A stretch of 42,161 nucleotides of DNA from a virus: the IMG/VR virus record IMGVR_UViG_3300028895_000298, positions 1-42,161 of that record. One strand, 5' to 3'. Under the pieces are notes generated by a model. That model did no database searches. It had not been told where the DNA came from and saw nothing but the letters and a program-made list of their open reading frames with translations. Both the position numbers and the translations under genes were made by a program. Position 1 is the stretch's first letter. Every line of letters begins with the position of its first letter. Positions 22,819 to 27,462 of the stretch are shown here, in pieces.

Positions 22819-23194
22819 GATCATCGAGCGTAAAGATCTACTATTGCAGTTGCTCGATAAACTGGACTCGGCCGAAGAGGACGCCAAGGCGGCGAGGGAT
22901 CGGCACAAGTCCATCATTCAGGGATTCGAGGCTGGTATAGTCTCGGCACGCGCCGCGCTACGTACCAACATGGAAAAGCGCCCGGTGCTCTGCGATCAGC
23001 ACTTTGACCACACCAAGCAAACGGTTGAGGTATTCCGAGCCGACACCGGGGCGCGGGTTCACGAGCGGGCGATGCTGCCGAGCGAAAAGCAAACGACCCT
23101 TGACGAAAAAGTCGCAGACGCCAAAAAGAAAGCCGGGGGAAAGACAGAGGCCAAGGGCAACGTGCTGCCGATGACGGCGCCGACGGGGAAGTGA
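22673..23194 (+). CDS. Conserved phage coiled-coil protein, unknown
   Basis: 173 residues from GTG 22673, preceded by GAGGAGATGGAAC. The first 45 residues, which overlap gene 22477, are low-complexity (S, K, P, T), then comes a coiled coil (about 48-100). It continues with a segment with CDQHFDHTKQTVEVFRADTG and ARVHERAMLPSEKQ (about 110-145), and a Lys-rich tail. The 'E..R.DTG....RAM...E' pattern is familiar from phage early proteins that lie near recombination genes. It overlaps the methyltransferase start (GTGA). Function unknown. Confidence 0.65.
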   Translation: MNKSKEPSGISKSTPNSPAKDAASVTKRKPEVRKKSATLSLPCKLSKAEIIERKDLLLQLLDKLDSAEEDAKAARDRHKSIIQGFEAGIVSARAALRTNMEKRPVLCDQHFDHTKQTVEVFRADTGARVHERAMLPSEKQTTLDEKVADAKKKAGGKTEAKGNVLPMTAPTGK

Positions 23195-24048
23195 AGCGCT
23201 TGAATGTCGGATCGCTATTCACGGGAATCGGGGGTTTCGATCTTGGATTCGAAGGAACAGGATTCAAGATCGCATGGCAGGTTGAGCATGACAAATTCTG
23301 CAACGAACTCCTGCAAGCCAAGTGGCCAGGCGTCAAGCGATATGGAGACATCCGCGAACTCGCCAAAGAAACACCGGAAGCAGTTGATCTTGTTTGTGGA
23401 GGTGACCCCTGTCCTTCGAGATCTAACGCCAAAGGAAACAGTCCGTCAGCCCATCCCGATCTTGCCGGATACTTCCTTGCCGTGGTCGGGCGATTACAAC
23501 CACGATGGGTGGTCCGCGAGAATGTACCTGCACCAGATGCTATCGACTTCGCGGCCGGACTGGAAACCCTCGGATACAGAGTCGTTGCTTTCGAACTCGA
23601 CGCTAGAGATTTCACGAGTCAGAGTAGACGGCGGCATATCTTTGTCGGAAGTTCTGGAGAAAGAGCCACCCGATTCAAGCGAGCATTACTTGACGCCCAA
23701 GATGGTGCTGGGATTGGCACATCGAGCCCTCAAGAGACAACGCCCATTGCAGCGTGTGTTACTGCGCACCCCGCAAGGATGGCGGCGGAGGACAGTTATT
23801 GTTGGGAGCCCTGTACAGACGCAGTCCTCCTCAAATGCCAGCCGCCATCCGGACAAGAAACCGGAAACTACCTTTACCAAGGCGGGAGATTACGTGTTCT
23901 CACTCCTGAAGAGTGTGAGGGTCTCCAGGGATTCCCCAGAGGCTGGACTACTGGATTTTCTCGCTCGCGCCGTCGAGCAATGCTTGGCAACGCAATCCCG
24001 GTCCCGTTCGCCGAATTCGTCGGAAGACTGATAAAGGAGATTGAATGA
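23191..24048 (+). CDS. DNA (cytosine-5-)-methyltransferase, phage Dcm type
   Basis: 285 residues from GTG 23191. C5-methyltransferase motifs in order: motif I SLFTGIGGFDLGFEGTG (8-24), motif IV GGDPCPSRSNAKG with catalytic Cys74, motif VI RENV (109-112), motif VIII QSRRRH (144-149), and a C-terminal LTPEECEGLQGFPRGW then LGNAIPVPFAEFVG (motifs IX-X). The target recognition region is short (about 155-230), as in small phage enzymes. Third-position GC is low: my hand count for 23401-23820 gives about 49%, against clearly higher in the next gene. The whole body of the gene is also open in the +1 frame (23204-24031). No cognate restriction gene is near, so protection against host restriction or regulation is likely. 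Confidence 0.88.
   Translation: MKRLNVGSLFTGIGGFDLGFEGTGFKIAWQVEHDKFCNELLQAKWPGVKRYGDIRELAKETPEAVDLVCGGDPCPSRSNAKGNSPSAHPDLAGYFLAVVGRLQPRWVVRENVPAPDAIDFAAGLETLGYRVVAFELDARDFTSQSRRRHIFVGSSGERATRFKRALLDAQDGAGIGTSSPQETTPIAACVTAHPARMAAEDSYCWEPCTDAVLLKCQPPSGQETGNYLYQGGRLRVLTPEECEGLQGFPRGWTTGFSRSRRRAMLGNAIPVPFAEFVGRLIKEIE
23204..24031 (+). CDS. Candidate overprinted gene nested in the cytosine methyltransferase (+1 frame)
   Basis: 275 codons without a stop, starting 13 bases after the methyltransferase start and ending 17 bases before its stop. It is the longest same-strand out-of-frame ORF in the genome. By hand count over 23401-23820 its third-position GC is about 63%, higher than the 49% of the methyltransferase frame, so codon choice looks better in this frame. 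The product has protein-like segments: SGDYNHDGWSARMYLHQMLS (about 93-112), ISLSEVLEK and HYLTPKMVLGLAHRALKR (about 160-178). The last resembles a helical 'SPKA..GILRRA.KR' motif that I recall in phage proteins linked to Dcm genes. No strong ribosome site is visible; coupling to the 23191 start is possible. Function unknown. Confidence 0.5.
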   Translation: MSDRYSRESGVSILDSKEQDSRSHGRLSMTNSATNSCKPSGQASSDMETSANSPKKHRKQLILFVEVTPVLRDLTPKETVRQPIPILPDTSLPWSGDYNHDGWSARMYLHQMLSTSRPDWKPSDTESLLSNSTLEISRVRVDGGISLSEVLEKEPPDSSEHYLTPKMVLGLAHRALKRQRPLQRVLLRTPQGWRRRTVIVGSPVQTQSSSNASRHPDKKPETTFTKAGDYVFSLLKSVRVSRDSPEAGLLDFLARAVEQCLATQSRSRSPNSSED

Positions 24049-25750: not shown

Positions 25751-26020
25751 GCAGGAGTGGAACGAATTAGAGCGGAACAATTGGAGGCCACGGGACTGGA
25801 TTGGCAGGAGAGGAACGCAACGGAGAGAATGGGAGCGGAGCGGATGGGAAAGGCCGGAGAGGAGAGAGCGAAGCGAAGCGGAGCAGATTGAAATGGAGCG
25901 GATAGGATGGGAGGGCAGCGCAGTGGAAGGGCCGGATAGAAGAGGGGAGAGGATGGGCAAGGACAGGAGAGGCAGGACATGGCAAGGCAAGGCACGGCAA
26001 GGCAAGGCAAGGGATATCTT
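25751..26020 (+). repeat. Purine-rich degenerate repeat tract without a gene
   Basis: About 270 bases with strong purine excess on the + strand, made of degenerate GGAGCGGA, GGAGAGGA and finally GGCAAGGCAAGGCACGG units. The + strand carries no credible ORF and the minus-strand ORFs are Pro/Leu/Ser low-complexity shadows. The periodicity is about 5 bases at the 3' end (GGCAA). The last unit AAGGG sits at ribosome-site distance from ATG 26021. It may form triplex or G-rich structures, be a replication or packaging element, or be an untranslated RNA. Confidence 0.75.
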
Positions 26021-26119
26021 ATGAGACTTGATCGAGAATCCAAACTCCTGATTTTGGCCATCCTTCTCGAAGTGCTGGCGTTTATCTTGGTGAGCTACCT
26101 TCTGGAGTGGATGCCATGA
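26021..26119 (+). CDS. Very small single-pass membrane peptide
   Basis: 32 residues, starting directly after the purine tract with AAGGGAT upstream. After a charged start (MRLDRESK) it is a hydrophobic helix (LLILAILLEVLAFILVSYLL, residues 9-28) ending EWMP. The stop overlaps the methyltransferase start (ATGA). Small membrane peptides of this kind are common in phages but seldom annotated. It could act on host membranes or only couple translation to the next gene. Confidence 0.45.
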   Translation: MRLDRESKLLILAILLEVLAFILVSYLLEWMP

Positions 26120-27462
26120 CGCTACTCAATGGAGATTGTCGAGAGATCTTGCCCACCCTGGAAGACAACTCAGTTGACGCCATTGTCACGGATCCACCTG
26201 CGGGAATTTCATTCATGGGGAAAAAATGGGACAGCGACAAGGGAGGGCGGGACACCTGGATCGCTTGGCTGGGATCAATCATGGCGGAATGCATGCGGGT
26301 ACTCAAGCCCGGGGGTCATGCTTTTGTGTGGGCGCTACCACGGACAAGCCACTGGACAGGGACAGCGATTGAAAACGCAGGGTTTGAGATCCGTGATTCG
26401 TTTCACCACATATTCGGGAGTGGATTTCCTAAATCGCTGGATATAAGCAAAGCGATAGACGCAGCGGCGGGGGCGGAGAGGGAGGTGGTTCAGGAACGCA
26501 AAGGGCCAAAGCCCGGGGACCACGGGGGATCTGGACACTATGGTCACGGCGAAGATCGATCCATAACCACCCCCACCACCCCCCAAGCCAAGCAATGGAA
26601 CGGCTGGGGGACAGCCGCCAAGCCCAGTCATGAAGTCTGGTGGCTAGCCCGCAAGCCTTTCCCCGGGACCGTTGCAAGCAATGTACAAGAATGGGGAACG
26701 GGGGGAATCAATGTTGCAGCGTGTCGAGTGGGGACGGCAGAGAGGTACAACCAGCCAGCGACAGCGGCAAAAGACACATTCAACGCAAGTCCCGGAAGCG
26801 GGATTGATTACACGGGCCAAGAAGTTGCTGGCCGATGGCCCCCCAACCTACTCCTAACCCATTCCCAAACCTGCCATGCGATAACAGAGGGACCGAACAA
26901 GGGATGGAACTGCGCCCCTGATTGTCCAATAAGGGAAATGGATCGACAGAGTGGGGAGAGTGTGACACCTGCGTTTGTGACGCGAGGCGTAGGCAGAATG
27001 TGGAAAGAGGGGGGTGGCCTTTGTAATAAGGCAGAGAATCAACCATGTTCGGACACCGGCGGAGCTTCCCGTTTCTTTCCCTGTTTCAAATACTGCCCCA
27101 AGCCTAGCAGGGCTGAGAGGGAGCAAGGCTGTCAGGGGTTGCCCAAGAAATCAGCGGGGGAATGCACCGACAGGGAAGACGGATCGGCTGGGCTGGATTC
27201 TCCCCGGGCGGGAGCGGGCAGGACTTCAGGCGCAAGCAACAATCACCCAACGGTCAAGGCAAGCGAGTTGATGTGCTGGCTCATAAGGCTGATCACGCCC
27301 CCCGGGGGCACTGTCTTGGATCCTTTCATGGGTTCAGGCTCAACAGGAATTGCAGCGCACAAAGAAAGCTGCGGCTTCATAGGCATTGAGATGAATCCTG
27401 ATTATTTCCGAATTGCAGAAGCAAGGATCAAAGACGCCACCAAGCAAGGGAGGCTGTTTTGA
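26116..27462 (+). CDS. Site-specific DNA N6-adenine/N4-cytosine methyltransferase
   Basis: 448 residues; ATG 26116 is chosen over GTG 26107 because of the ATGA overlap and GGAG at the right distance. The catalytic motif IV is TDPPAGISFMGKKWD (25-39, DPPA in place of the more usual DPPY). MRVLKPGGHAFVWALPR follows (about 64-80). Near the C-terminus LDPFMGSGSTGIAA (about 401-414) is the SAM-binding motif I, so the order is IV before I (beta class). The middle has a Cys- and Gly-rich variable target recognition region (about 200-340). With the Dcm it makes two methyltransferases and no nuclease, typical of anti-restriction modification. The target site cannot be told. Confidence 0.88.
   Translation: MTLLNGDCREILPTLEDNSVDAIVTDPPAGISFMGKKWDSDKGGRDTWIAWLGSIMAECMRVLKPGGHAFVWALPRTSHWTGTAIENAGFEIRDSFHHIFGSGFPKSLDISKAIDAAAGAEREVVQERKGPKPGDHGGSGHYGHGEDRSITTPTTPQAKQWNGWGTAAKPSHEVWWLARKPFPGTVASNVQEWGTGGINVAACRVGTAERYNQPATAAKDTFNASPGSGIDYTGQEVAGRWPPNLLLTHSQTCHAITEGPNKGWNCAPDCPIREMDRQSGESVTPAFVTRGVGRMWKEGGGLCNKAENQPCSDTGGASRFFPCFKYCPKPSRAEREQGCQGLPKKSAGECTDREDGSAGLDSPRAGAGRTSGASNNHPTVKASELMCWLIRLITPPGGTVLDPFMGSGSTGIAAHKESCGFIGIEMNPDYFRIAEARIKDATKQGRLF

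Follow-up and report, generated by a model that had tools for sequence, protein, structure and literature searches.

The small polypeptide of M.EcoHK31I is encoded in another frame of the gene for the large one. M.EcoHK31I is a two-polypeptide C5-methyltransferase (YGGCCR) whose small polypeptide holds only motif IX (PMC3404938). M.AquI is likewise divided between subunits, the smaller of which holds motifs IX and X (PMC3404938). M.AquI and the YdiO/YdiP-like split methyltransferases resemble the system proposed here in that one enzyme comes from two polypeptides; M.AquI differs in that the enzyme is split between subunits, whereas here a long stretch inside the catalytic core would be double-coding. 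A phage methylase gene has also been reported to conceal a second gene in a different frame, the HNH endonuclease of the ShiLan domain (PMC11855218). That case involves a mobile insertion bearing HNH and zinc-finger motifs, whereas here the methyltransferase core itself would encode both products; the nested products of our locus and its relatives gave no Pfam match to an HNH domain, and the overlap lies on the core, not on an insertion. Two-polypeptide C5-methyltransferases and HNH genes hidden in phage methylases (PMC11855218) are, then, already known.

The stretch analysed here (the window) is the viral IMG/VR record IMGVR_UViG_3300028895_000298, positions 1 to 42,161, with a length of 42,161 bases. 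It contains a gene for a C5-cytosine DNA methyltransferase (MTase) whose +1 frame is open from an ATG at 23204 to a TGA at 24031 (275 codons), the codon just upstream of 23204 being itself a TGA. The limits of both frames agree exactly with the original prediction, which had also called the nested frame the longest same-strand shadow; this holds among the 19 long forward-strand ORFs surveyed, where the next longest shadows have 219 and 217 codons. The main frame has a second possible start, a TTG at 23200, which aligns with the likely GTG start of the relative L002. The PC, ENV and QSRRR motifs, motif IX and the GNAI motif X were all found in the main frame, as expected of a C5-MTase. In this the window is unlike M.EcoHK31I: the main frame holds motif IX itself, and the +1 product is not the supplier.

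We propose, with good confidence in the explanation as a whole, that a second gene overlaps the MTase gene in the +1 frame, with its own internal ATG and a product that would be a beta-type partner. The parts of this proposal differ in strength. Across the family, the +1 frame of the core (MTase residues ~51-190) is almost certainly a coding gene under selection, as judged from sequence comparison; that the coding gene is real in this particular window is highly probable on the same kind of evidence. The identity of the product as a beta-like MTase partner is argued by analogy, and we regard it as evenly balanced. The features of the locus are collected in Table 1.

Table 1. Features of the MTase gene and its nested +1 frame, with one segment from a P1-like phage.
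Feature	Positions	Strand	Remarks
C5-cytosine DNA methyltransferase (MTase), main frame	23191..24048	+	GTG start, 285 aa; PF00145 E=7e-36, PHROG 116 E=1e-54
MTase motif IX, PEECEGLQGFP	23905..23937	+	main frame; sets the window apart from class B
Nested +1 gene, likeliest form	23342..24031	+	229 codons, ATG at MTase residue 51 to TGA; start position common to the family, profile E=3.9e-8
N-terminal extension of +1 ORF	23204..23341	+	46 codons; open in the window and L002, stops in most other relatives
Nested QLILFV	23381..23398	+	from alignment; matches the family QLTLFAEDSPAKT block near the nested N-terminus
Nested SLSEVLE	23639..23659	+	from alignment; best conserved of the family's short +1 blocks
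Nested HYLTPKMVLGLAHRALKR	23684..23737	+	matches YYLSPKACAGILRRAEKR of the family; helix predicted with pLDDT about 90; conservation in the family above the synonymous null, z up to 28
C-terminal extension of +1 ORF	23765..24031	+	past the usual end of the class A nested ORF; open in L002 too
ACLLSQVLEQTSIPQRYFLSSKACAGILRR			sequence segment of the +1 product, P1-like phage

The simplest rival is a chance shadow, in which the +1 frame is open only through the amino acids and codon usage of the MTase. When the MTase protein was held fixed and its codons shuffled synonymously, 4.1 +1 stops were expected where none is seen (P(none)=0.0014, or 0.0016 with the phage's own codon usage), and the 275-codon run was matched by 0 of 500 shuffles, whose longest runs averaged 124 codons. 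Within this result, the core of the window taken alone is marginal (P=0.047) and neither extension is unusual, which favours chance. The N-terminal extension would be free of +1 stops by chance with P=0.47, and the first 60 MTase residues show no depletion of +1 stops in the family; these 46 codons probably lie outside the conserved gene. The C-terminal extension would be stop-free with P=0.26 and its third-position differences (0.39) are not below the level of non-overlapping sequence, so that the sequence evidence for selection on it is weak. Direct searches also leave room for chance. The window nested product matched nothing among phage proteins, nothing above noise in Pfam, PHROGs and NCBIfam, and no relative in viral contigs; a 102-aa middle piece found no more than the MTase of a Caulobacter phage (E=0.5). 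PADLOC reported nothing credible, and an initial scan of genome contigs with an MTase profile gave no confirmed match.

Base composition had been offered as a further argument for nested coding. The hand-counted third-position GC over 23401-23820 was reproduced on recomputation (0.626 in the nested frame, 0.486 in the MTase frame), but only half of the reasoning survives. Third positions of nested codons are first positions of MTase codons, and third positions of MTase codons are second positions of nested ones. The nested value of 0.63 is therefore merely the ordinary GC1 of an MTase and proves nothing; the contrast between the frames is forced by their geometry and was rejected as proof. The low GC3 of the MTase itself is real, at 0.50 overall and 0.43 in the core; the other window genes surveyed range over 0.58-0.82.

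Stronger evidence comes from the family, which was reached only by collecting relatives of the MTase and reading their +1 frames. Eighty relatives were taken from viral contigs, and 55 of them together with the window form a non-redundant set of 56 MTase genes. A long +1 ORF is present in most relatives, even at 35-45% GC. In the longest-run test against synonymous shuffles, 77% of the 56 genes reach p<0.05 in the +1 frame; the figure for the +2 frame is 5%, the chance level. Between MTase residues 60 and 190 the 56 genes together hold 32 +1 stops against 238 expected, and between residues 140 and 160 none against 28. The flanks mostly have +1 stops at or above expectation and the +2 frame lacks any such depletion, so the effect is limited to one stretch and one frame, as a chance shadow would not predict. 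Plasmid genes served as controls: in 11 C5-MTases the core holds 76 +1 stops where 79 are expected, and 10 of the 11 have no open +1 core. The exception, on a Levilactobacillus brevis plasmid (L253, 300-1254), has a +1 ORF with SLSDILEDEVPEKYFLSSKA and is itself a member of the family.

The family also shares a start. An ATG-led +1 ORF that begins at residues 38-66 (around 51) and stays open past 185 was found in 36 of the 56 genes, for a null mean of 1.1. Shine-Dalgarno-like cores are moderately enriched upstream of such ATGs (38 against 22 expected, among 83 sampled); in the window, none was found upstream of either ATG (23204 or 23342). The conserved blocks lie in the +1 frame as well. The original prediction pointed to a phage motif associated with Dcm genes, and that motif is real: dozens of phage MTase genes have SLSxVLE...YYLSPKACAGILRRAEKRGK in their +1 frame (about 26 of the 80 relatives in a motif scan). 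In the SLSEVLE block of the alignment, L147 (nested numbering) is invariant, and L151 and E152 nearly so. Further downstream, over MTase residues 165-190, the signature YLSPKAAxGILRRAxxRG is more conserved as +1 protein than the same stretch in the MTase frame. Pairwise similarity of the +1 products exceeds the shuffle null with z=28 (residues 165-175) and z=26 (175-190), and the majority residue is found in 50-70% of genes in many +1 columns, compared with 20-40% in many MTase columns. Over residues 165-190, then, conservation is driven by the hidden frame.

The window fits this family. Its nested product matches a profile built without the window and L002 at E=3.9e-8 (28.7 bits), whereas the best of 300 shuffles scored 17.2 bits. 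The proposed search with the nested product failed in its direct form and succeeded as this profile match, above 300 of 300 shuffles. The +1 frame over residues ~51-190 is open, the product matches the profile and the ATG stands at 23342, which together are all the features by which the +1 family was recognised. In view of the +1 conservation above the synonymous null, the shared start, the plasmid controls and the profile match, we consider a chance shadow very improbable; for the family, comparison of the sequences has already refuted it.

Programmed frameshifting would account for an open and conserved +1 frame in another way, with ribosomes shifting from the MTase into +1 to give a truncated MTase with a different C-terminus. 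The best-conserved +1 part, YLSPKA, does lie after MTase motif VIII, where such a shifted tail would fall. Stops, however, are already depleted from around residue 60, a long way upstream of such a tail, and most genes have an ATG-led ORF whose start lies at about residue 51; this combination makes programmed frameshifting less likely. Residues of the +1 frame are moreover conserved already at positions 64-68, 99 and 124-128. We judge frameshifting to be quite unlikely, and the evidence supports reading of the +1 product from its own internal ATG.

The only close relative found, the viral contig locus L002 (MTase 78% identical to that of the window), allows a more direct comparison. Its +1 frame has no stop over the same stretch, and the two nested products are 65-67% identical. 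Differences at MTase third positions between window and L002 are 0.40 in the N-terminal part, 0.24 in the core and 0.39 in the C-terminal part (Fisher p=0.007, core against flanks), and first-position differences in the core are not below the N-terminal value. Overprinting, as suggested in the original prediction, is thus upheld on both points that had been named as decisive, the absence of a +1 stop in L002 and the excess third-position constraint in the core. The L002 nested product scores 22.3 bits against the family profile, with 1 of 300 shuffles scoring higher. L002 has no ATG at the family start position and would need another start, so that its start is uncertain.

The same lowering is seen across 105 independent pairs of family members, where third-position differences exceed first-position ones by a ratio of 1.53 in the core and of 2.57 and 1.92 in the flanks; the core value is diluted, as in some pairs the core includes downstream sequence. 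GC3 of the core is drawn towards intermediate values: it lies below that of the flanks in 21 of the 22 GC-rich genes and above it in 16 of the 18 AT-rich ones. Reduced third-position divergence in the core could likewise arise if an RNA or DNA structure, such as a regulatory element, were constrained in place of a second protein. We give this a negligible probability, since the signal lies in amino-acid space and in one frame, with stops avoided in +1 and not in +2, a start codon at one end and +1 residues that stay conserved in genes of 32 to 69% GC.

Several other features of these two loci were noted. An antisense ORF of 233 codons (window 22914-23615, minus strand) lies opposite the 5' half of the MTase, and a shorter one of similar sequence is open in L002 (2928-3413). 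The L002 contig has a second C5-MTase match within a 1298-codon open frame (G001:C1 52268-53197, minus strand). In the window, a second DNA methyltransferase, of the N6/N4 type, is found at 26107-27462, 2 kb downstream of the Dcm gene (PF01555, E=5e-29), and the gap before it holds short imperfect purine-rich tandem repeats with 5- and 15-base units (25956-26012).

Motif IX divides the family into two classes. In class A (24 of the 56 genes) the MTase frame contains it, and the YLSPKA signature forms the end of the +1 ORF. In class B (21 of the 56) it is absent from the MTase frame and present in the +1 ORF (LNPxWVEWLMGFPxGWT). As the class B main frame lacks motif IX, the +1 product must supply it and would so complete the enzyme. 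Class B and M.EcoHK31I are alike, with motifs I-VIII and X in the main frame and IX in the smaller product (PMC3404938), a likeness drawn from the published description. The N-terminal modules of the class A and class B +1 products are homologous (hhalign 99%, E=3.7e-18). With motif IX in its main frame, the window is not of the M.EcoHK31I type that defines class B. The MTase tree nevertheless places it together with class B genes (support 99/97), at the end of a long branch (1.48). Grouped with class B in spite of the motif IX in its MTase, it may represent an intermediate or a derived form, a placement that the long branches make uncertain.

Other arrangements occur among the relatives. In L107, the N-terminus of the MTase, the YLSPKA signature and motif IX all occur in a single +1-type ORF, as would be expected of an intermediate. 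The MTase frame is interrupted in both L107 (by a stop) and L078, with the +1 ORF open in each; sequencing errors are possible. Mycobacterium phage Shygu2 (L265, 629-1724) has two overlapping annotated DNA methyltransferase genes in a split arrangement, the second of them in the frame of the +1 product.

We propose that the +1 product is a beta-type partner subunit that would bind the MTase translated from the same mRNA. In class A and in the window it would keep the shared N-terminal module and have a different C-terminus (in class A a two-helix hairpin), and it could tune the stability, the regulation or activity, or the specificity of the MTase. A functional link to the MTase is plausible by analogy, as the class B arrangement matches that of M.EcoHK31I. 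Alternatively, the nested gene is real and its function has nothing to do with the MTase, for example as an anti-defence or regulatory protein lodged there. The MTase of class A and of the window has all its motifs and by sequence needs no partner, and databases give the product no function. Against this, with the nested protein as query, at least 160 loci were found in viral contigs and bacterial genomes; all of the 160 best matches listed overlap an MTase ORF in +1, and no stand-alone copy was present among them. The homology of the N-terminal module to class B products that carry motif IX points the same way. We hold an unrelated function to be possible, if doubtful.

AlphaFold modelled the window nested product mostly at low confidence (pLDDT 56); the canonical class A product reached pLDDT 63 overall, with a C-terminal two-helix hairpin at 96-98. 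A Foldseek search against the PDB gave no significant fold match and a PDB sequence search no match. From the lack of a confident predicted fold and of any PDB match, the models suggest that the +1 product may fold only on a partner.

The gene is widespread in phages. A tblastn search with one nested product returned 161 phage records, and the P1-like phage RCS47 carries the +1 gene within dmt; in the RCS47 record and the others inspected, only one gene is annotated over the overlap. The RCS47 dmt ORF (L244, 901-4188) also has a seemingly intein-like insertion just 3' of the catalytic PC motif (GGTPC/FTAGHM...HN/CQAFSIAG, slashes marking its ends), which breaks the +1 frame too; the +1 signature lies downstream of it. 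Family +1 products match PHROG 1008 and PHROG 16143 ('DNA methyltransferase') with E down to 9e-29, which implies that in some phage records the gene already listed is the +1 frame. The label belongs to the overlapping enzyme and not to the +1 product, and the window product itself has no match there. To our knowledge, standard gene callers do not output both frames; as they give one, the +1 gene is missed or filed as 'DNA methyltransferase'.

As far as we know, documented cases of long same-strand overlaps that are conserved in phages of many hosts are rare. The open-access literature yielded no account of a conserved +1 gene within the Dcm genes of phages, least of all where these are complete, which is weak evidence of novelty. 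We think it rather more probable than not that phage and prophage Dcm-type genes, including those for complete MTases (class A and the window), harbour a large unrecognised +1 family whose product always accompanies the enzyme as an obligate companion and is a homologue of the motif IX product of M.EcoHK31I-like genes, and that conservation over residues 155-190 is driven by the hidden frame. The copy in dmt of the P1-like RCS47 places the gene in a well-studied phage group that could be used for a direct test. With motif IX in one frame or the other, the family is a natural setting in which to study how split enzymes arise. If the +1 gene is translated, many phage Dcm enzymes would have an unrecognised partner, with a bearing on their specificity, their behaviour in cloning and their role against host restriction.
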